64,000 nt of DNA from Sclerodactyla briareus (lineage: Eukaryota > Echinodermata > Holothuroidea > Dendrochirotida > Sclerodactylidae). This document shows positions 1,591-64,000 of this stretch, one piece after another (the stretch's first letter is position 1; every line of letters begins with the position of its first letter). The DNA lies in NCBI GenBank assembly GCA_026419785.1, contig JAODTK010004999.1, forward strand, positions 806,001 through 870,000, in the 5' to 3' direction. The translations under genes were made by a program, and so were the position numbers. The notes under the pieces are model-generated. The model did not search any database, was not told the origin of the DNA, and saw nothing but the letters and a program-made list of their open reading frames with translations.

Positions 1591-1612
1591 TTAGGCGGTT
1601 CAAGCCCGCAGG
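1547..1612 (+). repeat. tRNA-like SINE head (possible)
   Basis: TAGCTCAACCAGTGG near 1554 resembles a pol III A box and GGTTCAAGCCC at 1597-1607 is a good B box, at about tRNA spacing. The acceptor stem does not close, so this is not a functional tRNA gene. It is more likely the head of a tRNA-derived SINE or a chance resemblance. No poly(A) or simple-repeat tail was seen downstream. Confidence 0.3.
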
Positions 1613-2984: not shown

Positions 2985-3255
2985 ATTAAGACCATTTGAC
3001 CTCCAGTAACTTTGAAATGCCCTACCGTTGGTCAGATCCAATGTGTCCAATTCCTCAAGGTAATAACGACAAAATTGCATGATGCATGCGAATTTGACCT
3101 CCTGTGACCTTGAAATGGCCTTCATGTTGTTTTTAGGACTAAAACAACAGTCCACATACACCTAGGTTTGTTAGATCAACAAAGTTGGAAACAATTGCTC
3201 CAAAAACACAAATTTGACCTCTGGTGACCTTGAGATCACTGTCATGTTTTGGGAC
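2985..3255 (+). repeat. TGACCT minisatellite, family B, about three units
   Basis: The core TTTGACCTCCTGTGACCTTG is repeated in degenerate form at about 2995, 3090 and 3210, each followed by a CATGTT-type block and a run of intervening sequence. Spacing is about 95-120 bp. Related single units occur at 11390 and 16470, and a related tandem lies at 34670-35048. It is non-coding. Confidence 0.55.
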
Positions 3256-4779: not shown

Positions 4780-5090
4780 AATAAAAAAGAAAAGGAGAAA
4801 TATGGCCTTTCAAGACATTTTCCAGCTGAGTGCAGGCACAATTTACGAGACGGCGAGCTAACAGCCCGGCTGTCGAAGCCTCAGGTGTCTCTGCGCTTTG
4901 TAATTGCATTAATATGCTGGAGTGATCGATGGCTTTACCGCCATCCGGTAATGAAGTTCCACCCGGCCACAGAATGTGAGCAGAAAGGAGAACATGCCCC
5001 TAATGCTGCTGCTGCTGCTGCTACGAATGTGGCTTTCTCCCCGGCTAATTTGCTAGGCGAATGAGCTGTATCACCGCCATTAATCAAACC
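4780..5090. promoter_or_regulatory. Possible non-coding regulatory block with a GCT repeat
   Basis: This block is more balanced in composition than its surroundings and contains homeodomain-like cores (TAATTGCATTAATATG near 4901, CCATTAATCAAACC near 5078), a GATCGATGG motif and a (GCT)6 tract near 5005. It does not match any repeat elsewhere in the window. A similar patch with AATTTAATTAATAG and ATGAATATGCATAACTTC lies at 5740-5850. The cis-regulatory role is inferred from motif density only. A conserved exon is less likely because the open frames on the two strands compete. Confidence 0.2.
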
Positions 5091-7324
5091 GACCCTTGAC
5101 AGGTGGTCATCAATTTGGGAGCATATCATGTGAAGCTTGTTACCATTTTGTGCAGCCAAGCTTACTGGATAAGTGCAGTAGCAAGCTGCGTCAATAAAGT
5201 AAGTTTCTCTGAAGACTGTTAAACAATTTTCGCAGAGAATATGAAGGACACAGTACAAGCCTAACATAATTTGGGCCATACCATACAATGGTGCTATTTT
5301 TGTTTCCAATATGTAGATAGACCAGTCTTGCCTGGTTTTCTCCAATGTAAACAATGGAATGAATTCAGCAGCCAACACAAATCTAGTGAAGTTTTTTACT
5401 AGATGCCGGCAGATCTGATGTAATAAATAGCCATTAGACAGCAGGCACAAATTATCATGGGGAATGGGAGGAGGTCAGTTTGGTTACTGAGATCTTTAGA
5501 AGGTAGACCACTGCCACAGCCCCCTCTCCCCCTTTCTCCCAGAGGAAATAATTGCAGCAATATTTAAGCTGAAATTTGTGATAAAATGGCTCCAGTACTG
5601 GTGAAAGGTTCCATAACACATACTTTTCTACAAACCTGAGTGATGGAGAAGGGGTTGAACCCCCACAATCCTCCAATCTCTCTTCACCTATATATAGTCT
5701 TCTTCAAGACGCTCTGATTGCATTCCTGTAACAGCTCTTCAATTTAATTAATAGCTCAATGCTTTCTGTCGCCACTCCTGGAGGGGGGGCGAGGTCATGA
5801 ATATGCATAACTTCATTTCAAATGAGAATGAGCGCCAATCGATGTGCTATAGTATGACTATGTTTAGTGCAATGATCTGACAAATTTAGATGATTAACCG
5901 TGTGGACTGCAAGTGCTGGGTGTTTCACAACACAACATGATTGGCTTTCTTCTGGATCATTCAGATTGAGAATAGCTTTCTGAGAACAGTTCTGCTAAAA
6001 TGTTCACTGATAATACTTTACTGGGTATTGTATAGGATAGTTTGCAGAGCTGCGCGAGGACAAACTGTCTTAAATCCAAGACACTTATGCTACCACTCTG
6101 AAACCAAATCAGAGACCATCACAATGGAGAATTACAAGATCTCATGCCTCCAAGCCTCTGGAGGTTAATGCCTCCCAAGTATGTAGGTCTATGCCCACTT
6201 GCCATACTCCTTACTTCCTCACAATTCTATCATCTCCTCTGATTGATAGTTCTTTTCCTTTAACCTATAGCTTTAATTAGCCCTCAACAGTGTATTCCAG
6301 TGTTAATTATTCTCATTCTACCTGTTTCATCCTTTGTCCCTCATTTTCATGTCTGCGCTAGTGATGACTTACCCCCATTTTCACCTGCATGTCTGTTCTA
6401 ATTATACCCCAAAACCCCCCCCCCCCTCCCTCCCATACTCTCCCCTACTAGTATTAGCAGACAACGACCATATTGGCTTACATACTGCTAAGGTCACCTT
6501 TGGTTGTCAATTACATGTTAGAGGGTCCTAAGATCCGAGCTAGGCCTACACCCCCAGTTGGAATATACAGGCCTACTATCCAATTTTTTACTTACTGTTG
6601 CAAACATAAAATCGAAATAGCAAACACATTTTAGTACCAAATACCTTCATTTGGAATGAGGAAACTTTCTCTACCTATCTCTTCCTTTAATGTTCATTGA
6701 TGTATTGGGTCTCCTTTGTCAAGTTGTGTGTCAAAACAAGCCTTGAATTGTTGTACACATTTGTAAAGCGTAAAGCCTAACACAGGTTGTGAAGGAAATT
6801 CAGATTTCATTCATCAGAGCCTTCCATATACCACAAAAATTTGCTGATTTTTCAGTTTACTGCATAACTTTTTTTGGATCATTATAATTTTTAACTGTTC
6901 CCATGACTGATTGGCATTGTAACACACTTAGACAGGGTTAGTGAGCTTTAGGATCCTTTAAAAGTGTATGCAACTATCAGCAAAGCCTTTCAAGTGCTTT
7001 GTTCAACATGCATCACAAATTTTGTGATGCGATACGGTTAATTGGAACGACAGTGCATTGAAACCTGTCTGATTTTATGTATAGTGCATGGTTACAATCA
7101 TCAGACTGGAAACAGCATTGCATGCTCACAAAACACTGACCTATCTATATCAGAGCAATACTTGAATGATAGGATTGCAGCCTGTGATGGACGCAGGTGG
7201 ATACAGTAATGGTCAGTTAGCCCTGTTTGGCCCTGTTCTCTATACCGAATTGGAGAAGAGCAATGTATGGTGTATTCTTTTTTCCATACGAATGATCGCT
7301 CACGCGATCAATTTTTGAGGAGCG
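5091..7324. other. No recognisable gene; pyrimidine-rich stretches
   Basis: The region is mostly A+T-rich and single-copy in appearance. Pyrimidine-rich text runs from about 6180 to 6450 with a C run near 6414-6425. No transposon end, RNA gene or protein domain was identified. The 171-residue minus-strand frame at 4935-5450 has no family resemblance. Confidence 0.3.
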
Positions 7325-7375
7325 CAGGGGCGGCGATTGAATTGGCGTTCCTTATAAATTGGGGTGGGGCCTGCT
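7325..7375 (+). mobile_element. Solo hAT-type terminus (CAGGGGCGGCGATT)
   Basis: CAGGGGCGGCGAT here is identical over 13 bases to the left end of the hAT element at 17259, and a similar AAATTGGGGTGGGG block follows. No matching right end or repeat of the preceding 8 bp (GAGGAGCG) was found downstream. It is therefore probably a truncated member of the same family. Confidence 0.4.
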
Positions 7376-8736
7376 TCACGAGAAAGCTACACAATAATTT
7401 TTCACTCTGATCACTCTGATCTCTTTACTTGATATCTGAAGTATTGTAATAATGATATTTCTGGATGAATGGCATTTATAGGCAACTAGTGGTGCGAAAC
7501 ACAGCACACTACCACACCTCCAGACACACAAAGAAGCTTACTCCATGTTTAGTGTACAGGTAAGTTTTTTAGGAACTTTGAAGACATTGCTATTCGTTAG
7601 CCTCCCTTATATGTATAGGAAACAAGTTCGACTCACATGGAGCCCATACTGACCTTTGATCAAAACGACGCCATAGTTACCCCTAAGACCCCTAGCTGCT
7701 TGTTTACTGTTTAAGATATGAAAGGGTATATAACTTAGAGATATATAATCCTAACATTTGGTTAATTCTTGATATGCGGGTTTCAGATAGGCCTAAGCTA
7801 ACGGCAGATCTACTTTTCTGTTCATAACCATTCTCGACTCTGAATTTTGCTTTCGTCCTTATTTACCTGAATATCTGTCTCGACTGTTTATTCGGCCAAC
7901 AAAAGTCTCCCATTGCAGTTTATTCCTTTGTCAAATAATGGAACCAAAAAATTTACTCAACCACAGTTCCGCAACAACAAACCAATCAACGAACCTATTT
8001 TTTATTAATATTTTGGTTTGTTTTGTTTTGCCCTAGCACTGCATTGACATACAGGACAGATATGCTAGTACCTTGTGTTGAAATGGCACATACTCAAGCT
8101 TGATAACTATGTCCCCCATTAGGGTTGAATGCCAGGAGCCTGCCCAGGAGAGGCTAACTTCTTTTCTACTCAGGCCCCCAGCTGCCGAAAGGTCAGTTCA
8201 CCCCTAAGGGAATTGTGTGTGGGCCTGAATGCATGCACATTATTGAGACTGGCTGGCTGGGGAAACCTTGGCCTATCTGGCCTACATTAACAGATCCATT
8301 GGATGGGAAGCTATCTGGACTTTGGGGAAGGACATCTCTATTCTTCTAGGTAGTGTTCACTTGGTGCGCTGATGACAGCAGATCCTGAGAAGTGGAACAG
8401 GGAACATGGACAGCATCTGTGTGCCCAAGAAACACCCTGGGTTAAGACTGTTCTGCATTCTGTTCAAGTATAATACAATGTAGTATAGGTTGGCCTATGC
8501 CCCCCCAAAACCCCCTCTATCCTGTTACCTCCCCTCCCATCCCACTACATCCCATTCTGAACTCTCCCAACCACCTTCCAGTCCTCTCAGCAACCTCCCA
8601 GCCTCCGCTTTCTTCTGCCTCAGTGTCCTCGGTTGGTTTAGTTAATGGAATAATGATCTGCATAAATGTTGGTTATTAACCCAACTAATTCACCAGTGGT
8701 AAGATGGTTTAATTATGAATTATGATTTGCTATGCT
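7376..8736. other. No recognisable gene
   Basis: Nothing recognisable was found. A C-rich pyrimidine tract covers about 8500-8620 and gives a spurious proline/serine-rich open frame of 60 residues. Confidence 0.3.
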
Positions 8737-9125
8737 TTTCATCCATAGCATAACCACTCGGATCCTGACATACCTTTTCAAGTGCGTGCATGACTGGCTC
8801 CAGGATTTTATTGATATATTGGTCCTCCGCCGTGCACTCGGGCCTTCTTCCTCCAAGTCCATCCTTGTGAATCGACCATCAGAGAAGGTTGGGTGGAGAG
8901 ATAGGGCTTTCAGCTACCTTGCCCCACAGCTCTGGAATGATCTTCCTTTGCAGGTGTGTGATATTCCCTCCATTGATGGATTTTCAAGTCAGCATGAAGA
9001 CCCTCTTCTACAGACACGCCTATTGTGTAATTTATTTTGTGGTTTGTAAAGCAGCATTGAACTTTTGTGGATTCGACGCTATATAATATAATAATAATAA
9101 TAATGATTAATAATAATAATAATAG
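8737..9125 (+). mobile_element. LINE 3' end (CR1/L2-like) with ATA tail
   Basis: The translated sequence holds the typical C-terminal tail of a non-LTR reverse transcriptase ORF. RAFSYLAPQLWNDLP sits at about 8905-8950, followed by a degenerate form of the SxxxFKxxLKTxLF motif (DIPSIDGF). The reading shifts frame around 8980. Downstream are TTGAACTTTTGTGGATTCG and an (ATA)n-rich tract at about 9078-9124, the simple-repeat 3' terminus expected of CR1/L2-type LINEs. The 5' part is missing, as in ordinary 5'-truncated copies. The clade is not certain from so short a piece. Confidence 0.75.
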
Positions 9126-11374
9126 CATTCCTAAACTAAGTATTCTTAGAAAATGTACATCAATTTCGTGGCAGAATATGGATTTGTCTCTACCAGGGCT
9201 AGTCTATCGGTTAAGATGTTAATGCCCCGCCACAGCCACATCCTCATGCACAAAATCTGACAGTGGACCCAGTGGTAATCCCCCTCAGTGGTTTTCATGT
9301 GGTAAATTGCTTAGCAATGTCTTCCATACTGTTTCAACTCACCAGAAATCTTCACATATGACGGTGGTCTTGGCCAACATTGTCATGTTTAGAAGCTTCT
9401 ATGAATATTCACCAATGTAGACTGACAAATATTAGCAAGGGTGTAGTCAAGGCCGAGGCTTCCCATTTCTTGAGTTTGTCCATCGCATTTATGTACGTAT
9501 GGCAGCCTCAAGGCCAAACGAAAACTAGGCCAGAGAAATTTGAGGCCAAGGCCAGAGAAATTTGATGGCTGATGACAGCCTGAATACAAGGACTGTTAGA
9601 AAATCCTAGGATCCAGATTCAACATTGTCCCGTAATCACTGTGTAAGTTGCATGATCGCACTCTCACTGGCGCCAGCATGTAACTGCCACAGCCCAATTC
9701 AACTCACGCATAGGCCTTAGCTTGCCATACGGTCTAGTTTTATTACGCACACTCATTACCTGGCGATCATAGAAGAGTTCAAACAAGACTTCGGAGAGAG
9801 TGACAAGATCAAGGGATGTTTATAACTATAGGTGTAGCCTAGTGGAAAAGTGAGCCATTGGCAAAATTAACAGGCATTGAGAAACCACAATCAAGAATCT
9901 TGGAACAAGGCAACAAGGGCCACCTTTGTACCAGCCTTTTCGTTTCAGACTGCTTGAACCTCACCTCCGTTCCCTCAATTTTATACATCCCTTGCGACTG
10001 CACAATGGTGTTGAAGACCGTACATCTCCGTTTGTTGGCCTATGAGCCTGGTATTACCATGAATAAACTGGCCAAACCCTGCAGATACCTGACCTAGCCA
10101 GCCTTACGACTCGTCAGCAACAACGGAGCAGCTTTTAAGTAAGGTTAACTTGAAGAGGACCGTGAAAGGTCCTCTTTATCAGGGCCAATTTTGTACCAGA
10201 CTTATCCTTGGTGGAACTGGTACAGACAGGAACACCCCCTGGGCAGATGTTACCTTAGCATGGGTCCCATCTAGTTACGTACTTAATAGGCATATTTGGG
10301 CGACTTGATCAAGTACAATGGCATGAATTGAAGATTTGCCATTTATTTTGATGATGCCTTTACTTGGGTAGTCTGATCCTTCACCTCTGGTGCCCAGCGC
10401 AGTTTGTGAGTTGACCTATTGCAAGACTGATATTTTGGGACCTGGGCTCATTTAATGAAAGTTAGGAATTTCTACCTGGCTAACGTAGGAACTCTTTGCT
10501 CGACTAGTCAGAATTGTTCCCAACCTTTAGGAACATTCCTAAGTAATCTGTATGGAATAGGACCCTTTGTTTCTTGAAAACCAGACTTAGTAAGTTTGCA
10601 TTGCCCAGTGGAATTGTCTTTTCTTGGAGCACAGCAGACCCTTAGGCCAACCTAAGAATTTGGGCCAACTTGACTAAGTCCACTCCTGTGCTTATACTGT
10701 CTGCTTCAAGTTTCCCTGCTTGGCTCTGTGTTACTGCAGTTTCACATAGCAAACACGGAGTCATGAATGTACTTACCCAGTCTCCCCCCACCGCAAGTCT
10801 ACCTATCAGCATGCTTCATCTTAATCACTGACTGAGCTTGTACTAACATCATTATTTTTAAATAGCACCCATCAATGCCAGTAATCCCCTCCCCCCCCCA
10901 AAAAAAGATAATAATAAATAAATACATAAAGGTTTTAGCTTTATACTAATGGTGTTACGGTGTCTTCGTTTGTCAACATTTCAACTGAACAATTGGAAAC
11001 CCTTCTTTAACGAAACTGGCTTTGTCATGTCATGAGTGACAAGGAAACATGTAGGAGACACTCATCAGTAGAACTGATGAATGTTGGTCCTAGTGCTCCT
11101 GCTTATTTAGAAGTCTTGGTCCTGGAGTTTTTGAGATAAGGCATGCTCAATCATGTGTGTATATGTATGTGGATCCACAGGTGTCAGGTGACGCTATGCT
11201 CCCAAGATCCTTCCCGTCATAATTACCAATTTGGGTGGTAACTCTCACACTAATCATCCGTTAATCAACCACCATTCATGATTTACCAGTAATTCGGAAC
11301 ACTGCTCCTGCCCTCACAGGGCAATTGCACCCTTTGATCAAAATCTCCCAACGATTAAATATATTAGCAAAACA
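9126..11374. other. No recognisable gene
   Basis: No domain, RNA or transposon end was recognised. A C run with an A-rich flank is near 10890-10907. The open frames are short and unremarkable. Confidence 0.3.
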
Positions 11375-17258: not shown

Positions 17259-18907
17259 CAGGGGCGGCGATCTGTGTCAAATTTGGGGGGGACATATGAG
17301 GCTGCACCATCTAAACGGAGCGCCACCATTGGTTGCGCGGATTTGTATAAGCGAATTTTTCCCTTCTCCAATCCCCCTATTGCAGGAAACGGCACTTCTG
17401 GGCATATGGCCATTAGTTAACATCCTAAAACGGCAATGATCCTCGATTTTTTTTTTTTTCCAAGGAACATTTTCGAAGATGCTGATCGATGTTCACAAAT
17501 TTCGCGTACAATTCGGGCCAGGCACTATCGTTTGACGCGTAGTGTACAAGGAAAATTTTCGTTTTCCAGACTCGCCAGATTGCAGAAAACGTACTTTTTC
17601 TTTTTTCCCCCGAATTTCGTATGGAAGTAAGCAACGTCCCTAGAACTGGCAATAATTTTCAGGAATTTATATATCAGAAGCCTTCTTGAAGGACCTGTCT
17701 GATGTTTTTTCCTTATACAGTTCGGGCCACCATCAGCGGACGCGTAGAGTACAAGGAAAATTCTCGTTTTAATACCCCCCAGATTGCAGGAAATGGCACT
17801 TCCTGGGCCGTATGGCAATTAGCAATGTCCCCAAATTGGCAATGAATTTCAAAGAATTATATCTCAAGAAACGCTCTTGAAGGAACTGATCTATGTTCAT
17901 TCATTACAATTCGCGCCTCCATCAGCGGACGCGTAGAGTACAAGAAAGTTTTGAGCCTTACGAACCCCCAGATTGCCGGAAAAGGGACTTCTCCCGGGTC
18001 TTATGACAGTAGCAACATCCATGAAATGACAATAAATATCCAGACTTTATATCTCAAGAAACGCTCTTGAAGGAACTGATCTATGTTCATTCATTACAAT
18101 TCGCGTCACCATCAGCGGACGCGTAGAGTACAAGAAAGTTTTGAGCCTTACGAACCCCCAGATTGCCGGAAATGGGACTTCCCGGGTCTTATGACAGTAG
18201 CAACATCCATGAAATGACAATAAATTCCCGAAATTTATATCTCAAGAAACGCTCTTGAAGGAACTGATCTATGTTCATTCATTACAATTCGCGTCACCAT
18301 CAGCGGACGCGTAGCGTACAAGGAAAATTCTGAGCCTTACGAACCCCCAGATTGCCGGAAAAGGACTTTCCCGGGTCTTAGACAGTAGCAAATGCCAGCA
18401 AAAGCCATGAATGCAGTCTGAACAAAAAGGATCAGAAGTAGACTAACTCTAGCTATTGGTTGTGTGCAGTGTTAAGAAAATGGCAGTTATTCCCAGCATT
18501 GTTGTAGTGGGGAGGGGGTGCACCATGAACCACGTCCCAAGCAAATTCTCCTTGTGGCCTACCCATATGTTCACCCTACTTGAAGAAGGCACGTATGGAG
18601 AATAGTCATATTGAATTAGAATCTGACAACGTTATTGTACTACTGTATCATACATTAACGGAAAGATAGATTACAGCGCGCGCAGCGCTAATTTTTCTGC
18701 ATTTCTGCCTTCTCAAACATGAAATTTAAGCAATCTGATAATAAATATGAGTTAGACGCCTTGTGTTATGGCAGTATGTACATATATTATATGATTTTTA
18801 CACCAGTCCGAAAAATATTGCGGGGAGTTTTTGATATTATGTCCCCCCCACCAAAAATATTGGGGGGACCTGTCCCCCCCCGTCCCCCCCGTTATCGCCG
18901 TCCCATG
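17259..18907. mobile_element. Non-autonomous hAT-type transposon (~1.65 kb) carrying an internal satellite
   Basis: The left end is CAGGGGCGGCGAT (17259-17271); the right end reads CATGGGACGGCGAT on the minus strand (18894-18907). The two differ by one substitution and one inserted base. A perfect 8-bp direct repeat, GTTATTAG, flanks it at 17251-17258 and 18908-18915, as expected for hAT insertion. The subterminal regions share runs of GGGGGGGAC. No transposase-like frame exists. The middle is occupied by about six tandem copies of a ~190-bp unit, annotated separately. The preserved target duplication indicates a comparatively recent insertion or good luck in decay. Confidence 0.85.
17345..18395 (+). 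repeat. ~190-bp tandem satellite inside the hAT element, about six copies
   Basis: The block CAGATTGC(A/C)GGAAA recurs at about 17381, 17577, 17780, 17971, 18160 and 18350, i.e. every ~189-203 bp. The block GACGCGTAG recurs at 17533, 17741, 17930, 18120 and 18309. The last three units are nearly identical and the first two are clearly diverged, which fits growth from one side. Each later unit contains CAAGAAACGCTCTTG, a short hairpin. It is non-coding, and the period is close to a nucleosome repeat. Confidence 0.85.
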
Positions 18908-31520: not shown

Positions 31521-34414
31521 GGACGGAACATGGTCAACTTCAACTGCGACACTCACGAATCTGTCTACACTGACTACAGGTACCTAAACGCACTGATCGC
31601 GATAACCAATATTACATGTACTGTGAAGCAGGTTTTCAGACCATGCCATACATTCACAAGCAGTCCTGATATTGAGTTCATAATGCAGTTATTGATTCGC
31701 ACATCTTGGGGATGTGTCTGTTCACATGGACATTTTGAAGAAGAGTTGGTCATCTGATAGATTTCATGGTGCATGGGTTATTCCGTGTAGACAGAGACTT
31801 TGTCAAAGAGGACAGAGTCGTCTTGGGACAGGGGATCTCAATAACAAGTGGGAGAAGTGGGGGTTTCTGCTCCCCACTGGCAGAAAATGAAATTCAGCAG
31901 TAAATGGGGATCTTTTCATATGGGTACCAGTGGTGAATTCAACACATTCTTCCCATTGAAGAGGCACTGTCCTATATAGTAACTAATTGTTCAATTTTCA
32001 ATATGTCATGTGTCGCATACTTCCAAATACCAACCCAGCCATAAAGAATTTGAATCTATTTGCCAATATTGCTATTTTTTCAGAGTTGGTATTAGCATTT
32101 ATTTTAATTGAAACAGCTTACTATCAGTGAACACGTTGAACCTGCCATAGGGAACTGATTATTGGACCATCGTCTACCAAAGGAGTGAAAGTTGCAAACC
32201 ATTGATTGAAAGAGTAAGTGTCCTATTGCAAAATGCTTGTTGAATGAGCAGGAATGCTTTTAGAGATGCAATAGCAATCTTTATATCATACTGGTACTCT
32301 TCAGTAATGTAAGAAATTGGGTGAACAAGTGTTTGGACTTGAAAGTTGGAGGCACCGATGACATGAGGCAGAACTCCAGGGGCATTATTCATGGGATACT
32401 AATTACCATATGAACAACTAAATCTAAATAGACAGTGCCACTTGTGCAAAGCAAGACAAGCAAATTTGGATCCTGAAATTGGACCAGAGGACCTTTGCAA
32501 GCTGCGGAAACAATGGTCTAATTTCGAAAAAAAATTATCAAATCCATATTTGCTTCAAATATATCAAGGTACCAGCCACCAGTGATGTATACGATAATTT
32601 CCGTAAAGATACCACAACAGGCATCAGAAAATGCTACAGTAATCAGAACAAGGACGCAGGTAAGTCCCTACAAGGAGGGTTCTAGAGGTGACAGACACCT
32701 TTCGGGGAAAGTGCCATCGCAATTGTAATTGCAACAGTTTAAGGACAACTGCAGGCTTGGATACAACAGAGGTCATAATGTGGAGAATGTAAACTGTATT
32801 TCTAGATCCATGCCCCATTTCAATACGATGTTTTTACGTGGAGTTTGGTCGATTATGCAGAGAAATTGGGAAGAATCTCAATCGCGCAATAATGCATGTC
32901 GTCACACTTGGACAACCCGGGAAATTAGGTTATGTATTTCATTGTTTCATTTTGTTGAATAAGTCAACATTTAGCAGAAGTCCTGTTGTCTTTTTCATAC
33001 CAAAGTAACCATCAACATCAACTACCAACCCACTACATCAATTCTCTCCCATAGACTAAATGCTTTTGATGCTTTGAAAATAATGTGTGAATTTCAATAG
33101 AAAACAAAGAATGTTTGCAGGGTTGTGCAATTTTGCCATCATTTATTTTGCATCATTTTGAATTGCATGATGGGATGCTTCCGATCTTGCACAATACACA
33201 TGCACAAACTTCAAAGGAATGTAACTCCAAAAAACGGGATTCGTAATGAACTTCGGGTTTGGACTGACAGATTCAGTTTTCGAACTAATATATTAGCCTC
33301 TTCATTATTCACCTACAGTTGTCCTTTAACTGTGGGCAGGCATATAATACCATTTGATAGTATGGAACAGCTTTCATCACATCTTGAATCATGCGAGTGG
33401 GACCTGAGCTTTATGCCGTCTTTCCATGATCTTAGACCAGTGGAAAACCAGACTTGTCAGTGATTGGAAATCATACCTGAACTCGTTGAATCAACATCAA
33501 TATTCTCTGGTGATGCCATATCAGGGCCAAACTGAGGTTGAAGCCCAAAAAATTCGCTTCTGCATCAGCCTTAGGTTCTGTGCCTGGGTTGCCTGAGATA
33601 GAGGGAAAATAGAGAAATTACACATCCAGTCATGCAGAATCTGGTCAGAGATACCACCATTAGGGCTGAGTAAGGTGGAATAATTAACAGCATTTTCTGG
33701 GCTAATAATTGGGCTATGGCTTCCTATTAAGGTCAACAAGTGTACCTGCTCGTGTAACGGCTCGATTTCCTACGCAATTGACCCTAATGGATATCGTTAG
33801 GCTGAAGCAGAGTCTCTCGAAATTCTATCAGGGTTAGCAAAAAATCTGGGGAATGCAGAAACTGTGAAGAACTGGCATGAGACAAATATGCAATGTCGGC
33901 CTTGAAACGGCAGGGGGTACACTTTGGGTGGCGAGATTGAAACCATGAATGGTTTCAGAGTGGAGTAGATGGCTGCTTATTACCACCCCTTCACACTCCG
34001 CAGTCAATCTAATACCCTAATTAGTAGCAAATATTTACACGATAGTACACAATAGTGGACAGAGTTAATACCTGCAGGACAATCTGTTACGGAGTGGTCA
34101 TTTGGAACCTGAGTGCTCATTGAGTGAAATAATCCAATTGGGCATGATAGCGCTAATAGGGCGATAATACAGCGATATTGCAGGTTAACACGGTATTATG
34201 GCAGGAACTGACTGAACAGTTTCTTCTGGAATGATCAACCGTATAACATTTAGCATAAAACCAACAAATGTGCTTACAGCATAAATTCTAGTGAAAGCAC
34301 ACACAAAATGCAAACAGAAGCACATGGTTAGTGAGAACTTGATTCACAGAACTAGCGCTTGTATAGAATGATACATATGTGTTCAACACACAGGGAGTAC
34401 TAACACAAGGGGAT
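31521..34414. other. No recognisable gene
   Basis: The region was read in six frames without finding a recognised domain. A 112-residue plus frame at 33125-33463 has no family resemblance. GCAATTGTAATTGC near 32715 is a small inverted repeat. Confidence 0.3.
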
Positions 34415-34669: not shown

Positions 34670-35048
34670 GTTTCATGAAAATCCAGCAAACTTAAAATTA
34701 CGCACAAATTGTAAAATTAGAACTGTGATGAACCTCCAGTGACCCTGAATCCATTAAACCATACCCACCAGGTTTCATGAAAATCAGCAACTTGAAGATT
34801 TTGCAATACATTATTGCAAATTAGGTCACAATGATGACCTCCATTGACCCAGAATCTTTGTTAAAGAGTTTGGGGACTGAAGGTGGACCATATTCACCAA
34901 GTTTTGTGAAAATCCGACAAACTTTGAATTTGCATAAATTATGCAAATTAGATTACCTAATTACCATATTTTACTCTGAAAATCTAATCAGTTCATCAGT
35001 TCATCTAACTTATATCTCACATCTAATTGCCAAACCAAGTCACCATAG
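34670..35048 (+). repeat. TGACCT-type tandem repeat, ~100-130-bp units
   Basis: Three units start with TTTCATGAAAATC or TTTTGTGAAAATC at about 34671, 34771 and 34899. The first two contain CCTCCA(G/T)TGACCC. The third contains the palindrome TTTGCATAAATTATGCAAA (34929-34947) and an ATGCAAAT octamer. The end of the array, from about 34923 to 35048, recurs at 35527-35650 on the far side of the inserted element. Confidence 0.6.
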
Positions 35049-35049
35049 C

Positions 35050-35528
35050 ACCCAGCAGAGGCAGAGGAGCACCTGGACAACAAGTCCCAGCCTGGCTGAA
35101 CGTAACACAATACGTGGCGAAGCACACGCACGTGGAGTTAGGCAGTAGGGAACGTGTACACGAATACTGTGTTAGGTGCAGCTTAGGCTAAACAAAAGGA
35201 CTTACGCAAATCGGATCGGGAGAGAGAATAAGTTCCTTCAGAAACGGCCATAATCGCAAGAAAAATATTTGGAATAGGTGAAAATCAAACTTGTTAGACA
35301 GGTTGATAAAATGAGAAAACGTAATTGGAGTCGTCAGGACTAAATCTGAAGGGTGGAAATTCTTGACGAATTTCTAAGCCAAGATGCACTCAATTGTAGA
35401 GGAAACGTCTGACAAAAAGAGAAGGGCGATGGGGTGGCCAACCTGGACTTTTGTGTTATTGCCAGATGTTCAATGGCGCGGGGTGGGGTGCAGGGTCCAA
35501 TTGGGGTAAGTGAATATCTGAAATAGAT
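35050..35528 (+). mobile_element. Short copy of the GC-rich unknown element (terminal ~480 bp)
   Basis: The ordered blocks ACACGCACGTGGAGTTAGGCAG, GTTAGGTGCAGCTTAGGCTAAAC, GGAATAGGTGAAAATC, GAAATTCTTGACGAATT, CTAAGCCAAGATGC, GTGTTATTGCCAGATGTTCAATGGCGCGG and CTGAAATAGATT all occur in the same order at 60565-61060, the right end of the large element. Homology begins at about 35055 and stops at 35528. The copy sits between ~120-bp direct repeats. Retention of only this end looks like 5' truncation, suggesting a retroposon with its 3' end on the right. No poly(A) is present. Confidence 0.65.
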
Positions 35529-35650
35529 TTTTGAATTTGCATAAATTATGCAAATTAGATTACTATTGACCATATTTTACTCTGAAAATCTAATCAGTTC
35601 ATCTACTTATATCCTGTACCTATATATCAAACCACATCATCATAGCCACC
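35529..35650 (+). repeat. Right-hand direct repeat flanking the short element copy
   Basis: TTGAATTTGCATAAATTATG, TTAGATTAC, CCATATTTTACTCTGAAAATC and TAATCAGTTCATC repeat 34923-35048 nearly exactly. It is either an unusually long target-site duplication or the next unit of the tandem array into which the element inserted. Confidence 0.6.
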
Positions 35651-46989: not shown

Positions 46990-47419
46990 GATATGGGAGG
47001 GCGGATAGGCTGAGAGCCTGTCAGGGTTGCGAAATGTGGATTGAGTTTTTGAAGTCGGGTCTGAGTTTAAGGGGGTGAGCTTTGAGGACACAAGGCGGAT
47101 GGGTATATTTATAGATGTAAGAGTGTCATGGATAGCTGAGCTTGGGAAGCCGACGGCTTGGGGACACGTGGGGAGTCAGGGAAAGAGCTTAGGAAGGGGA
47201 GCTAGCTTTGCCGATACAAGGGAAGTATAGTGGTGGTCCTGGCCTTGACACTAGGAATAGTTAGTGTGCTGGCAGTTGAGGGAGGGCAGTCAGGGGGGTC
47301 AGTTGGATGGTCGTGGGGGCGGGTGTTGGTACAGAGGAGGGGCGCAGTCAGAGCGGATGTGTTAGGGCGAGGTGGAGGGAATGAAGGTGGAATTGTGGGG
47401 AGGGATAGGTAATAGGGAA

Positions 47420-47870
47420 GGTTTGTGGGTGGGGGATTCGATTGTTGGTATGTTGACAGGAATTTCGTCGCATAGATAAGCTGAGGCGTACGCGCTTTTT
47501 GGGCTGCCGGGAGCAAGGGTGGAGGATATAGTGAGAGGGTAATAGGATCGGGGAGAGGAGGTGGTGGTGGCGAGATAGGCACTAAAATCTACGGGGGGGT
47601 TGGACAGGTCAGGAAGTTCTAAGATCACGATTACGTGAAATGCTGGGCAGGCTGAAGTACACTAGGTTGAAAGTCGCGAATTTGCGGGCATTCTGACTAG
47701 GTTTGTCGGTCGTGTCTGTTGCAGGTTAGGACGGTACGGGTCTCAACAGTGGTAGAATTAGAGTGCGCTGCGCAGGGCCGTTCAGTTTGGGTGTTTCATG
47801 TTTCTGGGGAAGGAGGATCTTTTCGCTAGGATGGTCTTCACCTTAATGGGGCAGGGGCTTCAGTGTGCAG
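47420..47870 (+). pseudogene. CR1 ORF1 remnant with esterase-like domain
   Basis: WVGDSIVGMLTGISSHR at 47423 carries the GDS nucleophile block of SGNH/GDSL hydrolases. After a stop comes ALFGLPGARVEDIVRG, the LPGARVxDI block typical of CR1-family ORF1. Near 47795-47850 lie WVFHVSGEG and DGLHLNGAG, the DGxHLN block holding the catalytic Asp and His. Frames shift between the blocks. In CR1 elements this domain is thought to act with the RNP or membranes; the exact role is not settled. The proline-rich minus frame over the same DNA is an artefact of the G-rich strand. Confidence 0.7.
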
Positions 47871-48009
47871 GCAAGTGGGTAAATGTTGCGTGGAAGGAGT
47901 GTAACTAAATTGGGGGCGAGGGTCTATGGTGTCGCTAGTAGGCTTACTGGCAGGTTGTTAATAGTAAGCATCGCAGTGGGAGGTCGGGCGAGGTCAACAA
48001 TGGCGAGAG

Positions 48010-55290: not shown

Positions 55291-55966
55291 TCCATTGTTG
55301 CTTTTTAATAACCCAATACCTCTTAAATATTTTAACCATTCACTGCCTCATTGACTAAACCCCTTGATCCTACTACTGTACCTCCCTTAAAAACCAAATA
55401 CGTTGCCTGGAGTTCATAGTCCCTTCAGGATTATTGTATTGTCCAAACAATGTCTTTAAAATGGACCCTAAATCTTAATAAAGTTTATGTCCTATATACA
55501 TCAAAGAGTCTGCCCTTTACACATTCTACGTAATTCCATCAACTCCCTCGGGAGGTCACACCCCAACCCCTCTCACATCCCCCTTCTAGAGTTGGAATAT
55601 GCAATTCAATAGGCTTCCCTGGCCCAGAGGCATGAAGGCACTTACGGCTGAAAGATCTTGGACTAATATTAAGTGATACAAGGGAAGTTTACCCCCTTCT
55701 CCCCCCATCGCACACACCAGAGCTACTGCAGTGACACCTGACACCATGATTTGCTTGATAGGTTGCTGGGAGAAGTAACCAAATGACAGGAGGGTTTTTA
55801 CACTTATAGGCAGTGTAGGGGGCCAGAAGAGGTTATGACAAGGTGATGGAAACATCGAGGGGTTAAACAAGCAGGGTTTTGACAAGGATGAAATCTCTGT
55901 GTTCACAGATGGGGGAAGACTATAGGTGAATGGGAATTAACATGCGGAGGGGTTTTGTTGAAATGA
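55291..55966. other. No recognisable gene
   Basis: Nothing recognisable. The minus frame of 106 residues at 55586-55906 has no known relative. Confidence 0.3.
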
Positions 55967-56034
55967 GTAAAACATTTTGTATTGGATAGCCATGCTATAA
56001 TGAGTGATTTCGCATTCATGCTGGTCAATCGGCT
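55967..56034 (+). repeat. Left direct repeat flanking the GC-rich element
   Basis: GTAAAACATTTTGTATTG, TAGCCATGCTATAAT, GAGTG and CATTCATGCTGGT recur at 61063-61122 at about 80% identity, with small indels. It is not found elsewhere in the window. It could be a very long target duplication or a pre-existing local repeat. Confidence 0.6.
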
Positions 56035-59000
56035 CGGGAGGAAAAAGAAGAGCGTTCGGAGGGAGCCGTTAGGAGGGTCCGGAAAAAAAGAGTTTAGCCC
56101 ACGGGATCCGGGAGGCAGGGGGGGGGGGGGGTGGTGGGGGGGAGAGCCGGACTTCCCGCGGCTCGTGGAGCCTCGGAGAGCGATAAGGAGGTCCGGTGAG
56201 AAGAAGAGTCGGGCCACAGCCCCGGAGAGAAGCCGGAAAACGAACCCATCGAGGGAAGAGAAGAATAGGGAGGGAGGAAGAAGAGCCCCCGGCCAAGGTT
56301 CTGAGAGTAGGGATACCGCTCTCGGCTCGGTGAGACGAGTTTCCAGGAGGGGCAGGAAAGAGGCTTGGAGCAGCCGATCTTGCCTCGCAGAGCGCGCCAA
56401 CGAGTCGGCCCGCAGGCTTGGAGAGCCGGGAGGCCGATCCATGACTCAGGTGGGAGCCGTAGAGTGTAGTTTATGTAGGGGCCGAAAAGTCGGTCCATGG
56501 CTGTGGATGGCCTGGGCAGCCGACCCCACAGCTCAGCGGAAGACGAGGTTGGTCGGCGGCATGGAGAGCGGCGCGGCTCTGGTGACTGAAGACGGTTTCT
56601 GGCCAAATCTGGATGGGGGAGGCCGAACCCATGGTTCGGAAGGGCTGGGGGAAAACGGTTCACGGATCCGGAGAGGCCGATCTCCGACTTCTGGAGAGCC
56701 GGGCCTTCGGGCTCTAGGGCCCTAGTGAGGGCCAGCAGGGCAAGGTGGGAGCCCAAACGGCCAGGGGGGGGGGCCTGGGCACGGACAATCGGGTCGTGGG
56801 CACGGCTTGGGAGGCCACACGGTGGCTCCGGTTTGTCCGAGGTACTGAGCAAGGTTGGGGGTTCGGGCGAGGCGTGTCGCCGGTACGGGGCTGGTGGAGA
56901 GGAGGCTCTTCGCCACTTGGGCTGTGGTGGAGACCGGTCAGTGTCGGGAAAGCGCGTTCGGGCGTAGGACTAGTGTTAGAGTGACTTCTTCTCGTTGCGT
57001 CAGTCATCCGCCACTGAGCCTGTCGATGGACTGTCGTTTTGCCCCGTGAGTCCGGCGCAGAAGCTCCCAGGCGATCCGCTGGTCGTCGATTTGTAGAAAG
57101 AAGTTCGGAGGGCCCGCGGGCATAGTCAACTGGAAAACCTGTCCCCTGAGGCGGAAGCCAGGACGAAGCTCCTGCGTCTTGAGGAAGTAGGCGTTCTTCA
57201 GACGACGTAGTTTAGGCCTGGCCCTAAGCCACAGGGTGACCATTCTGCAGACTTCGGTTTAGGAATTGGGGGGGGGGGGGGGGGGGGGAACCAACCTTGT
57301 TGAGGGGCGAAAGTTGCGTCGGGCGTCATACGATGCTTCCATGAGCCTCTTCAGTCAAGTCGGTGGTATTCGCAAGAGATAGCAGATATCTCCGCTGGAC
57401 GGAGTCGGGTTACGGGAGTCTCCTTGAGGGAGTTGTAACCTGGCGGAGCCGCCGCTTCCAACCCCGAACCCCAAAAATCTGGGGGCGAGCGTCGGATGCC
57501 TTCCTAACTTTAAGGGCCGAGCAGGGGGGGGGGGGCCTGCTCAAGCGGCTCCTGAAAACCGATAATCCGCCGGATGGCGGGTACGCTCCCCCTAGGGAGT
57601 GTTTCTCCATAACGAACGTCTCACGGGGGGGCCTACCGGACGCGGAAGAAACGATAGAAGAAGAACCTGGACGGGCAACGGCCCTGCTGGGGGGGCCCAC
57701 CATCTGATCTCCCTGGAGAAAAGGCTGAAAGAAGGTGAGAGTTGCTCCAAGGGAGTGCGCCATGCTGGCTCTGTTATGGGAAAAGCTCCTGAAGTTTCAC
57801 ACCGATTTCCAGTAATTAAGCTTCCCCATGTGAAGGTGACTTTGGACGGGCCTGCGATCCCAAACAGCGTCGGGTTGCTGAAAATCGAAGGGTCCTGCAG
57901 CCTAGAGCAGGGTTCCCCCGCCGTGGGCGCCCGTTGACGGCATGGAGGGTCGGGGTCCACCGCGTTCGGGGGAGGCCTCTGGGGTGTAACGGCATCCGCA
58001 CCGGAAAAAATCCGGTTCGTTCGGCTCCCTCCGCGCTGAGAGTGGCCTCCGGTATCGGACGGGGAGGAGATACGGCACCAAAAAGCGCCGGAACGGGCCC
58101 GATCGGGCACCCTCCGCGCCGGGGAGAGGGCCTCCGGCCCGGACGGAGTGCCACGGCACCCGCGCCGGGCCGGCTGAATCGGCGGCCGGCTATTGGTCCG
58201 TATCCAGCAGCTTCGACTTTTTCCCGGCGGGAGACGAATCGGCTATCCAAGCTGTTTAGACGAGGGGAGGATCTACGGACGACGACGGACCTTCTGGCCT
58301 TGCGTCTTACGTGGTTTGCCCCGGTGCGGGGACCTGCGGCCTCCTGCGCATTGTTCGAGGGACGTGCGGTCCGAGGGAGGATGAAGCAGAGGGAGAAAAG
58401 AAAAGGTCTTTTACCACCGGTGTTTGGAGGGAAATTCTAGGTCTTGGGCCGCTTCTTTCCCAAATCGCTAGGCCGACGTGAGAAGAGGCTGCGCGATCCC
58501 GGACGGGACCTTTTGTGATACCTGCGGGGGGTTCCCGTGGTTGTGCAGCAACCCATGGGACCGTGGCTGCCCCGGCCGGCAATTTGGGTATGAACGCCCC
58601 CACCCGCGGGGGCCGGCTGTCGGCCGGTATCCATCGGGGCCAGACCGGGCCGTTCCGGGGCCTGGTCGAGGGGCCGCCGGGCCCGGATGGTGCACGGCAC
58701 CGGCACCGGACATGGAGGGCGGGTTACCGCAGTCCAAAACCGGAAGGCCACCACGGCCGGGACCCGGTTTTGAGTCGGATCCCTCCGCGCCGGGGACGGG
58801 CCCTGGGCCCGTGGCGGGCGGGGTACGCAAAGGTCCAAACCGAAGGGCTCACCCGGCCGGAATCGGTTGGGTCGGCTCCCCTCCGCGCCCGGGAGGGGCC
58901 CCCCGGCCGTTGACGGGCGGGTTTACCGCATGTCCCAACGAGGCTCCCACCACGGGCCGGACTTTCGGCTGGGGTGGCTCCATCCGCGCCGGGGGGGAGG

Positions 59001-61062
59001 GGCCCCCGGCCGTGACGGGCTGGGTGTTTACCGCAGTCCCAACCCGAGGATCACACGGCCCGGACACGGTTGGGGTGGCTCCATCCGCGCGTCGGGAGGT
59101 GCCCAGGGCCCGTGACGGGGCGGGTACCGCAGTCGACGGGATCACCCCGGCCGGCCCGGTTGGTTCGGCTCCCTCCGCGCCGGGAGGGGCCCAGGCCCGT
59201 GACGGGCGGGAACCGCAGTCCAAAACCCGAGGATCACCCGGCGGCCCGGTTGGTCGGCTCCCTCCGGCCGGGGAGGGGCCCCGGCCCGGACGGGGGTGTT
59301 ACGGCCAAACCAGAGCCGGCAAAACCGGCACCGGACAAAGTCGAGTGGGCGAGACAGCCGTACGCCGAAATCGCGGGCTTTTAGGATCACCCGGCCCCAG
59401 TCCTGTCCTAGACCGGGAGATCCAGAGCTCCATGCCGGGGGAAGCCGGCTCCCACGGCGTAAAACACCACCGGCCCCGAGGGGGGCCGAGCCGAAGTCTT
59501 CTTGGTACAAACTTTCTCCTTCTTCCTCCAGGGGTCCCCTTCTGGGACCGAAGACGCTGGACATCCCTCTCTTTGGCGACGATCCCCCTTGCCGGTTTCA
59601 CTTCCGATGGCCGTGATTGTCCGCACCGGGGCCTTACGGGCATCGGCCAACAATGACAGACCCCGTTAACCTTCTCGAGTCTGCCAGCACGGGGACAACT
59701 GATGAGCCTACAAAAGGGCACAATTTTTCTTACCCATGAGAGAAAGGCCGCTTGAGGAAGTCTTCGCCATGAACCCTCGTTCAAGGGACATAAAAAATCA
59801 ATCAAAGGCAAGTGCAACATCGACACAACGGCCGCGCAACAATGTACACGCGTCCTTCTCCAACAGGAGGAGGCGTGAGGAGTCTCTACGTGCATGGAAC
59901 CCCGCTCAGACATAGAGTAAATACATGGTAAGTAAAGTAAGAACATGAGTGACACAGTGAAATATCGGCGTTCAAAAGTGTGAGCATCCCATTACTACAA
60001 TTTAAACTGGGAGAAGAGTGGCAAAGTGGGTAGTATGCATAGTATCATCAACCATTGACGATCGGAGATGGACAATGGGCACATTTCCCTACCTGGGAAG
60101 GGGCCGCTGAGGAGGGGGGTCTCTATGGACCACGAAAACCTCACCCCACGGGCGTACAGCCCATAGTAATTAATATCAACGTGGAAACATGCGTTAACAC
60201 ATTTTTTAAAACATTGCGGAAGTACAGCTCAACCCCGAAGGCAACGAGAACGAGCAGATAATCATGCAAGGAGGAGCCCATCCACGAAACAGTGGGAAAA
60301 TAGGCAGTTTAAAATTACACGTAATAACGGCTCGCACGCAATGGCACGAGCCGACATCATTTGCATGACACCATTAAGAATGACAGGACGAGGAAAACTT
60401 ATCCGCTGTTCCCGTTTCCCCCTCTCTCACTCGATTACGTAACGAGATCCTAGGCGGCTGCGCGTGGGGGGACACCCCAACCCCCGGGGACGGGGAGGGG
60501 AAGGGAAGTGAAGGGTAGAAGGGGAACCCAGGGGGAGGAAGGGGGGGAGAGAAAGAGGGGGGCGGGCAGGCAGGGGAAACAACCGACAACCAAAGTCCAG
60601 CCCGGCTGCACGTAAACAACAATACGGGGCCGAAGTCACACGCACGTGGGAGTTAGGCAGGTAGGGAACCGGTACACGAATTACTGTTGTTAGGTGCGCT
60701 TAGGCTAAACAAAAAGGGACTTACGCAAATCAGAGTCGAGAGAGAGACTACGTCCTTCAAAACGATACTCCGAAAGAAAAACGTTTGGAATAGGTGAAAA
60801 TCATGTGGGCAGGTTGATTCCAAATTATAAACGATTGATTGGAGTGTAGACTAAATTTCTAAAGGGTTGAAATTCTTGACGAATTCTAAGCCAAGATGCT
60901 CAATGTTAGACGAAAAGTTGGCAAAAAAGAGAAAGGGCGGACTGGCGGGTGGGCCAACCCGGAAACCTTTGTGTTATTGCCCAGATGTTCAATGGCGCGG
61001 GGGATGGGGTGCAGGGTTGCAGGTTCCAATATGGGGTTAAGTGAATGATCTGAAAATAGATG
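56035..61062. mobile_element. Large GC-rich element of unknown class (~5 kb)
   Basis: The base composition jumps at about 56035. A sample line at 59161-59220 has 47 G or C in 60, against an A+T-leaning background. Sections are: imperfect repeats of GAG(A)GCCGGGAGGCCGATCC-type text (56035-57250), a G run of about 20 (57268-57288), a more unique part (57300-58500), a ~95-bp GC-rich tandem array (about 58640-59320), a less GC-rich part (59660-60420), a purine-rich tract (60480-60570) and a terminal ~480 bp shared with 35050-35528. Long open frames on both strands arise because stop codons are rare in such DNA. None has a recognised domain. No terminal inverted repeats, long terminal repeats or reverse transcriptase were found. 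Direct repeats of ~60 bp flank it. A retroposon, a rolling-circle-like element or a satellite-derived insertion all remain possible. Confidence 0.5.
58640..59320 (+). repeat. ~95-bp GC-rich tandem array
   Basis: The block ACCGCAGTCCAAAACC recurs, with variants, at about 58727, 58827, 58924, 59028, 59125, 59211 and 59300. The block CTCCCTCCGCGCCGGG recurs in step at about 58784, 58881, 58983, 59082, 59173 and 59265. Two related but offset units lie at about 57990-58170. The period is about 86-104 bp, not a fixed multiple of three, so the translated repeats fall in shifting frames. It is non-coding in my view. Confidence 0.75.
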
Positions 61063-61122
61063 GTAAAAACATTTGTTATGTAGCCATGCTATAATAATAG
61101 TGTTTCAGAACTCATGCTGGTA
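61063..61122 (+). repeat. Right direct repeat flanking the GC-rich element
   Basis: GTAAAAACATTTGTTATG, TAGCCATGCTATAATAAT, AGTG and ACTCATGCTGGT match the left-hand flank at 55967-56034. The element end CTGAAAATAGATG lies immediately before it, corresponding to CTGAAATAGATT at the end of the copy at 35528. Confidence 0.6.
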
Positions 61123-61139: not shown

Positions 61140-64000
61140 GACTAAAACCATTCTTAAAGGTTAGCGTACAGTCTCTGGAACTTGTTGCAGTAAATGTTAA
61201 TATTTAACAGTTTGGTCCATAATTGACCTTGACTTGACCCATTTGATGAAACATAAGGTTTTATGAACAAAAGTCCCGAGTCCGATCGAAGAGGGAGTTG
61301 GTCTCCACCAAAATGCACACAAAGGGCTATCAAAACTCTATCCAAAAAACACCAGTTTCTACACATTTATCCAAGATCTCAACTGTTTAGCACCATGACC
61401 ACCCGACAGAGTCAATTGAGGTTTTCAGAGGTCACACAAATGCAGATCAAATAATTTTCACAATGGGCAACCTTCCAGCTTCACAGATATGGAATGTCTC
61501 CGAGTATGGCCAAGAAAGACAACGGGTTGTGCCCCTAGTGACCTCTTGACCATGACCTTTAATTGACCCCATGGCAGTTCTTGGAAAATTGTAACTCTCA
61601 ATGTGTGTGATGACATTCCACTTACTAGGAGTTGCATTTTGCATTCTGATGGAAACATGCACAAGTGACTATGCCAAAAAGTAAGTACTTAAATAGTTTT
61701 TTACCCCTACGTGACTTTGATGACCTTCATGGAATGACGGTTTTTTATAAAATTGTTACTCCTCTATGTGATGCATCCACTGCGTAGAAGAAGAATATTT
61801 GCCCATTCCAATGAACAGCCTAATGTATTGCGACAACGCTATTAAATTAAAACTTTGACCCCTTGTCAACTACCCAAAGTAATGCGGTACGATGCGGAAG
61901 CGGGGAGTGGTTTCTCCATTGAGTAACAAAGGTATATCACATATCCAAAATAATGAGTTTCATTTTTTTTTGCGTAACTCTTAAAAGCACATTTATTCAA
62001 GACTCAACCTACCCACATGAAACCCGACAGAGGTCAAATTGAGCAGAGGTCCCACCACACAGCGGGCAACCCAAGTATTATCACAATGGTGGAACCTTCC
62101 AGCCTTCCAAGCTATCAATTCTCCGATATGGACAGAAAAACAGTTTTGACCACTCTTTAAGTGCCCTGAAACCTTAAGGACATGGCAGTTTTTATGAATT
62201 GAAAAAATTGTTAAACTCTCCATGTGATAAATTGCACAATCATAGGAAGCATTTGGGCCTTCTGATTAAACATGACCCAGTTATTGCCAAAAAATACTCT
62301 AAAAATCAGTTTTTTACCCCTACGTGACCTTTGATGACTTAATGGACATGACGGGGTTTGTTTCATAAAAATTGTACTCTCATGTGATGGAATCCACCCT
62401 AGAAGCAGATGGCATTCCAATGTACATGTCCGATGTTATTGCGGAAAAGGTAGAAAATTGAATTTTGACCCTTTGTAACTACCATAGTAAGTTTCCGATC
62501 GAAGCGGGGGAGTTGGTTCCTCCATTGAAGCACAAACCACGGTCTATTCACATATCCAAAAAATGACCAGTTTTTATTTTTGTCGGCCCGTATACTTCTT
62601 AAATAAGCAATTATGTTTTCAAGACTCAACTTAACCACATGACCACCGACAGAGTCCAAAATTGAGGTCAGGGTCACACCACATGCAGGGTCAACAATTA
62701 GATCACAAATGGGACCTTCCAGCTTCACAGATATTCATTCTCCGATTATAGGCCAGAAACCAGTTTTTTGAACGAAGTGACCTTGAATTGACCTTTAAGG
62801 AAATGGGCCAGTTAGTTTTTATGAAAAATTGTAAAACCTCTTAAGTGATACATCCACTCTAGGAGCATTTTTCATTCTGATTACATGCCCAGTGCTATTG
62901 CAAAAATTACTTAAACCCAAAAAAAAAAAAAAACCTCTAAAATCAGTTTTTTTACCATAACTGATCTTTGATGACCTTTAATTGAACTGACGGTTTTCAT
63001 AAATTGTTTGATCTCAATGTGCGCCTCCACTCATAGAAGCAATTTGCATTCAATGGAACACGCCCCAAATGTTTATTGCGAAAGGAAAGGTATTAAAATG
63101 GAAATTTGACCCCTTGTAACTAACCCAAGTAAGTGTACGATCGAAGCGGGAGTGGGTTTTCTCCATGAAAGACCACACCAAAGGGTATATCAACATATCC
63201 AAAAAAATTGACCAGTTTTATTTTTTGCGCCGGTAACTTCTCTCTTTTCTTTTAAAATAAGCACATTTTTTTCAAGGGATTCAACCTTCAACCCACATGA
63301 CCACCCGATGAGGTCTAATTGAGGTCAGAGGTCACATCTACATGCAGGTCAAACAAATTATATCACAATGGTTGAAAACCTCCCAGCCTTAACAGATATT
63401 CATTCCGATATGGCCAGAGAAAGGGAAAACAGTTTGAACACCCTAAGTGACCTGCCTGGACTTTAATGACATGGCAGGTTTGATGAAATGTAACTCTCCA
63501 TGTGATACATCCACGCCAGGAGCATTTGCCATTATGATTAACATGCCCCGGCTATTGCCAAAAAATACTAAAATCAGGTTGTTTAACCCTACGGGACCTT
63601 TGATGACTTTAAGACATGACGGTTTTCATAAAAAATTTTTACTCTCCATGTAATGCATCCAATCCTAGAAGCAAATTGCATTCCATGAACACGCCAATGT
63701 TATTGCGAAGGAAGGTTATACAAAATTGAAAACTTTGACCCCTTGTAATACCAAGAGGTAAGTGTCTCGATCAAAGCGGGAGTTGGGTTCCTTCCATTGA
63801 AGCACACAAAGGTTCTTATCAACATATCCAAAAAAATGAACAGTTTTTATTTCTTCGCCCTACAACTCTGAAAATAAGCACATTTTCAAGACTCAACCTT
63901 CAACCCCAAGACCACCGACGAGGTCTAATTGAGGTAAGAGGTCAAAAACATGCAGGTAAACAATAGTCACGATTGGGAACCTTCCAGCCTTCACAGAATT
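61140..64000 (+). repeat. ~625-bp tandem array, more than four units, runs off the window
   Basis: The anchor (A)GACTCAAC followed by CCACATGACCACCGAC recurs at about 61376, 61999, 62622, 63282 and 63887, i.e. every ~605-660 bp. Other blocks in step are ACCTTCCAGC(C)TTCACAGATAT, TTGACCTTTAA, CATGTGATACATCCACTCTAG, TTTTTTACCCCTACGTGACC and GATCGAAGCGGGAGTTGG. Each long unit looks like two related halves, since each has two CATGTGAT(A/G)CATCCA and two GCATTTGCATTC-type blocks. Units differ mostly by one-base indels. Nuclear-receptor-like TGACC(T) half-sites recur throughout. It is non-coding and the true length is unknown. Confidence 0.85.

Follow-up and report, generated by a model that had tools for sequence, protein, structure and literature searches.

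A GC-rich insertion in Sclerodactyla briareus belongs to a dispersed repeat family, probably of non-autonomous DIRS1-like retrotransposons

The DNA analysed here is a stretch of 64,000 nucleotides from the holothuroid Sclerodactyla briareus (the window; positions 806001–870000 of contig JAODTK010004999.1, in an assembly, GCA_026419785.1, of 319 Mb and 3171 contigs), towards the right of which lies a GC-rich insertion of about 5 kb that is a worn, truncated copy of a dispersed repeat family. Comparison of copies on different contigs indicates that this family is probably a non-coding (non-autonomous) DIRS1-like retrotransposon of about 6.3 kb when complete, with the two copies in the window representing a truncated second product. 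A preliminary description, made from the letters alone, had assigned the insertion to an unknown class; that label can be withdrawn, as fuller copies have DIRS1-like ends and an internal complementary region (ICR), and a complete copy (L029) lacks a target duplication.

A dispersed family with fixed ends

The composition of the window changes abruptly at the insertion, as the preliminary description had it: in 1-kb steps GC is 0.60–0.69 over 56–60 kb and 0.50 in 60–61 kb, and the rest of the window lies at 0.36–0.48 per step, with the sole exception of 0.53 at 47–48 kb. That kilobase (47001–48000) is strongly G-rich, with a GC skew of 0.51, and is at odds with its surroundings. The left edge of the insertion (the big copy, Table 1) falls at 56023–56034 when aligned with six of seven fuller copies and at 56049 against the seventh, and compared with these seven it is missing the leftmost 1.1–1.7 kb of the family. 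Its right edge was placed by alignment of 18 right ends, and the terminus reads ..CTGAAAATAG, the family form being ..CTGAAATAGATT. The reported recurrence of the right-hand 480 bp elsewhere in the window is confirmed (the short copy, Table 1); this copy is 86.5% identical to the right end of L043, and its left edge is at 35055–35059 against eight of nine copies. Neither the family nor the duplication flanking the big copy was picked up by the gap-free repeat finder, which did recover 41 bp of the short copy's duplication.

The genome was searched with the right 496 bp (best 40 scored of 347 first-look candidates), the 59.4–60.56 kb piece (best 40 of 125 candidates), the left 1.5 kb (the best 40 of 101 candidates, giving 64 matches) and a complete copy's left end (the best 40 of 578, giving 99), and 20 genomic stretches with copies (labels beginning with L) were taken for detailed comparison. 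The right ends of 16 compared copies, together with those of the two window copies, stop jointly at ..CTGAAATAGATT or a variant of it. The left end is present in 15 of the 20 stretches, and all 15 share a single starting point, AATCAACAAAACTTCACTGG, apart from slight variation; of the others, L041 and L042 are without the left end, L032 and L038 start part-way into the element, and L039 overlaps L040. Twelve of the 13 copies with both ends are 5.5–6.6 kb long, the median being 6.26 kb; the exception is L035 at 4.3 kb, which like L007 is internally deleted and retains both ends. The right flanks of the 13 are dissimilar, with a top score of 42 among 78 pairs. What emerges is a multicopy family with one right end, truncated copies and differing flanks, as a retroposon had been expected to show, and many copies across contigs rather than a single locus.

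Animal histones H3 and H4 hardly vary, yet at the three histone matches inspected, of four in this assembly (L045, L046 and L047, in G000:C2876, C1362 and C2362), their genes are frameshifted or heavily substituted; these may be pseudogenes, or the base quality of the assembly may be locally poor. Copies of the family depart from their majority by 9–18% substitutions plus indels, with a transition to transversion ratio of 0.73. Arguing against uniform noise, eight of 14 HSP70 matches are stop-free and some reverse transcriptase (RT) frames are open for more than 300 codons. The base accuracy of the assembly is uneven and the edge bases of the element are uncertain by a few; copy divergence therefore gives no ages. 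None of the host open reading frames (ORFs) of the window (10 of 51 ORFs of at least 110 aa) matched Pfam, so that the window offered no check of base accuracy. The garbled histone loci and the substitution ratio among copies lend some colour to an assembly artefact or misjoin, which is nonetheless very improbable because the same structure occurs on many contigs with different flanks, and two independent duplications are shown by empty sites.

Terminal anatomy and coding capacity

Within the left 320 bp or so of the family, at a distance of about 285–323 bp from its left end, the left tip and the right end recur as reverse complements, fused in that order into the ICR. Its first half matches the left tip in all 15 copies that have a left end (scores 64–90, shuffle maxima 27–36), its second half matches the right end in all 13 two-ended copies (scores 38–71, shuffle maxima 24–36), and the two halves adjoin within about 8 bases. 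The junction reads GTTG-AAT-CTATT in the alignment of the 15 copies, the exact 3-bp overlap being judged by eye. The ends themselves are inverted terminal repeats (ITRs), with 92–111 matches in 109–142 columns in 13 of 13 two-ended copies, and the motif GGTCCAATATGGGGTAAGT, as read from the alignments, is found at both element ends and in both ICR halves. There is an extension on the ICR-side end. With the ICR set at the 3′ side (the window minus strand), the family starts with AAT and ends with ATT, and the junction is ATT, to which the start is complementary; the end differs in its middle base, as in some rows of Table 3 of PMC3266345. The earlier statement that no known transposon hallmark is present stands for the big copy, which lacks inverted ends, and in that no RT was found; it does not stand for the fuller copies, which carry inverted ends and an ICR. 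The palindromic left end also prompted us to consider parvovirus-like hairpin ends; the DIRS layout explains the arms and no protein turned up, so this candidate was rejected.

The presence of inverted ends, and the retention of both by the internally deleted L007 and L035, are points in favour of a non-autonomous DNA transposon of the cut-and-paste kind that has complex terminal inverted repeats and whose fused complement is a nested inverted-repeat insertion fixed in the master copy. We consider this quite unlikely: nesting does not predict that the two reverse complements meet within a few bases, no short constant target duplication is apparent by eye and the L029 empty site shows none, and cut-and-paste transposition does not yield left-truncated copies between long duplications.

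A search of the six frames of L043 against Pfam, with E values up to 1, matched no family. In single-block majority sequences (column support 0.76–0.86), the longest ORF is above the 95% shuffle point in one of nine blocks and equal to it in another, which is about the chance level; eight such ORFs were searched, and two gave matches, both sub-cut-off (best E 0.064). A 235-aa arginine/serine-rich ORF is above its 95% shuffle point (218) but in one of the nine blocks, and is a possible relic that we do not claim. Substitution rates by codon phase are nearly equal in eight blocks, the largest gap being 0.105 versus 0.125 (standard error 0.006–0.008). Rfam gave two matches over 34–64 kb of the window, both below gathering scores and both outside the element, so that no ribosomal RNA origin is indicated. 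The RVT_1 profile search of the genome scored the best 150 of 1330 candidates, and among the matches listed none is nearer than about 38 kb to a listed family copy (by eye, on ten shared contigs).

The long duplications and left truncation of the window copies had earlier suggested an undescribed R2-like or Penelope-like element. This identity is not supported and is scarcely credible: both ends are fixed and inverted, with an ICR, in 13 copies, complete copies lack a long duplication, and no RT was found in the element, including none of either clade in L043.

Target sites of complete and truncated copies

The long target duplications of both window copies are proven by empty paralogous sites. 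The direct repeats of about 60 bp reported at the edges of the insertion are real: the two segments flanking the big copy align with a score of 59, where the 95% point for mismatched flank pairs is 25, and are one segment in the empty sites. The highest mismatched scores are 94, 53, 50 and 34; the first is between L028 and L029, which share a dispersed repeat, and the 53 and 50 both involve the short copy's left flank, which is in a dispersed repeat. Dispersed repeat Y, within which the big copy's left duplication lies, has 39 other scored matches, and its copies L049, L050 and L051 carry the duplicated segment once, in alignments that are loose and run 20–50 bases beyond the edge. For dispersed repeat X at the short copy, L034, L039, L044 and L026 are empty, with the duplicated segment present once; the two flank repeats are 96% alike over 75 bp, fading with distance (111 matches and 12 mismatches in 145 columns). 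The unusual length of the flanking duplications is thus upheld for both window copies. Repeat X at 34923–35050 bears a palindrome-like TTTGCATAAATTATGCAAA.

The flanks do not form part of a larger tandem repeat, a prospect that had also been raised, as the big copy's flanking repeat is outside the array of about 630-bp period that starts at about 61.3 kb. This array occupies 61362–63997, directly right of the big copy, and its units are about 70% alike; a further array, of four units of about 190 bp, is present at 17630–18391.

At 12 of the 13 two-ended copies no long direct repeat adjoins the ends, and L033, which is in a tandem array, is ambiguous. In the L029 empty site (Table 1) the left flank stops and the right flank resumes within a few bases, the duplication being absent, and a second relative of this site, in L028, agrees by coordinates only. 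No constant short target duplication was seen by eye at complete copies, where sequence noise could mask duplications of 2–3 bp. The family anatomy is observed directly, and so is the outcome of insertion for one complete copy and two truncated ones.

Flanking duplication was assessed at seven truncated copies. In L038 and L039 the element's right part and the right flank are repeated in tandem, about 80% alike, and in L032 (4148–8284, oriented) part of the element is repeated in tandem at 93%; these tandem duplications are either a biological or an assembly effect. With them set aside, two of the four remaining truncated copies, both in the window, carry long duplications. A 36-bp repeat at L007 (score 38, above most nulls) is purine-rich in a copy that retains the left tip, and a weak flank repeat at L041 overlaps a left-tip-like piece by eye; neither was used.

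Because tandem duplications are seen at L038 and L039, with the first copy retained, and a tandem repeat lies inside the element at L032, we keep as a rival explanation that the window copies arose by tandem duplication of the right element part and right flank, followed by precise loss of the first element copy. It seems unlikely, as precise loss is required twice, and plain X or Y repeat lies upstream of both left repeats with no convincing element remnant; the best candidate, a reverse left tip at the big copy, was not accepted, its score of 31.5 exceeding the 95% null point (28) and falling short of the shuffle maximum (34).

Table 1. Coordinates of the features discussed; those of L038 and L039 refer to the oriented stretches
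Feature	Coordinates	Strand	Basis or remark
Big copy, left-truncated family member	56026..61059	+	Edge alignments and genome matches
Right terminal inverted-repeat region of big copy	60909..61059	+	60924–61042 inverse match to fuller copies' left ends
89–101 bp tandem repeats within big copy	58774..59294	+	Tandem Repeats Finder
Target-site duplication of big copy (~63 bp), left	55963..56025	+	Within dispersed repeat Y; flank alignment
Target-site duplication of big copy, right	61060..61121 (start approximate)	+	Flank alignment
Short copy, right ~480 bp of family only, right end identical in position	35055..35529	+	Alignment
Target-site duplication of short copy (~121–130 bp), left	34923..35052	+	Within dispersed repeat X; flank alignment
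Target-site duplication of short copy, right	35530..35650	+	Flank alignment
Empty-site paralogue of L029 insertion site	32743..33228	-	Shows no target duplication
L038 tandem duplication	4613-6950 repeated at 7525-9901		
L039 tandem duplication	1292-4381 repeated at 6694-9901		

Integration and comparison with known elements

Several observations weigh against a DIRS1-like identity. A search of the genome with PF05869 gave no matches and no DIRS protein was found, and a search with PF00589 gave one match only, the surroundings of which also match DUF3504. No autonomous partner was found in the genome, although one may be concealed by sequence noise. The family falls short of the DIRS definition in its coding part, and we therefore file it as non-autonomous DIRS-like and not as DIRS proper. 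Long target duplications are not expected from DIRS integration; moreover, the truncated copies L002 and L042 show no long duplication above nulls, and L032B, L038B and L039B arose by tandem duplication in place rather than by insertion. Read with the ICR placed 3′, the family starts with AAT, and not with the NTT usual for DIRS1-like elements in the sections consulted of PMC3266345.

For a non-autonomous DIRS1-like family, enzymes supplied in trans would copy the family RNA, the ICR would template the missing ends and the closure of a circle, and a tyrosine recombinase would integrate that circle. For truncated copies, placing the ICR 3′ would put the 3′ end of the first-strand cDNA at the window-right terminus, which is the end retained. 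Such a 3′ end, if joined to a staggered break or used as a primer there, would leave copies that stop bare on the right and have lost sequence on the left. We infer that the window copies most likely formed when element cDNA or RNA was joined to a break with a wide stagger, or primed at it. More tentatively, they could reflect a second DIRS-type integration route, in which 3′-completed cDNA at the ICR gives right-anchored, left-truncated copies with duplications of 60–130 bp, running beside recombinase-made complete copies without duplication; we offer this as a possibility and not as the probable course of events.

The common right end, varied left ends and duplications of unequal length of the truncated copies would also fit long interspersed element (LINE)- or Penelope-type machinery copying the family RNA in trans and making the long duplications, and the many RT loci of the genome (those among the best 150 scored of 1330 candidates) could supply it. 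We judge this conceivable and on balance doubtful, as there is no A-rich or simple-repeat tail, both window copies stop at the DNA terminus, and that terminus is beyond the reach of the transcript under the DIRS model. Target duplications of LINEs are also usually shorter than those of the window copies.

If the DIRS1-like reading is correct, a gene-less family that keeps DIRS ends and an ICR would be natural evidence that such sequences suffice for mobilisation in trans, as expected from the DIRS circle model. The absence of long duplications round complete copies and their presence round truncated ones would likewise make the DIRS integration step, which is poorly known, testable in genome data.

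A tyrosine recombinase fragment, presumably Crypton-like, is present in L048 (G000:C1216:518400-520400, minus) and matches Phage_integrase (PF00589) and DUF3504. Cryptons are not known to have ITR and ICR anatomy, and the fragment has no link to the element family. Ngaro and other such tyrosine-recombinase retrotransposons have split direct repeats, according to the sections consulted of PMC9210276 and PMC8969392; Ngaro and the family share the absence of a target duplication, and the family differs in its inverted ends and ICR. No non-autonomous DIRS family was found in the literature covered, namely passages of PMC3266345, PMC5633606, PMC9210276 and PMC8969392.

As described in the sections of PMC3266345 consulted, DIRS1-like elements have ITRs and, close to the 3′ end, a pair of ICRs whose overlap is a 3-bp circular junction, together with an extension on the right and a boundary motif, 10 nt or longer, common to ITRs and ICRs; 23 of 28 elements have NTT ends, no target duplication is formed, and lengths include 6052 and 6283 bp for SkoDIRS1 and SkoDIRS2 and 5222 and 5808 bp for AcaDIRS1 and AcaDIRS2 (Table 3 therein). 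The part consulted of PMC8969392 gives the same short definition. The family differs from these elements in that no gag, RT/RNase H, methyltransferase or recombinase ORF was found in it, in its GC-rich interior with tandem repeats, and in its right-anchored truncated copies carrying long target duplications. It resembles them, as far as those sections go, in its size class, its ITRs, an ICR complementary to both ends with a short junction, the ICR-side extension, the boundary motif shared by ITRs and ICR, ATT at one end, and the absence of a long target duplication round complete copies.

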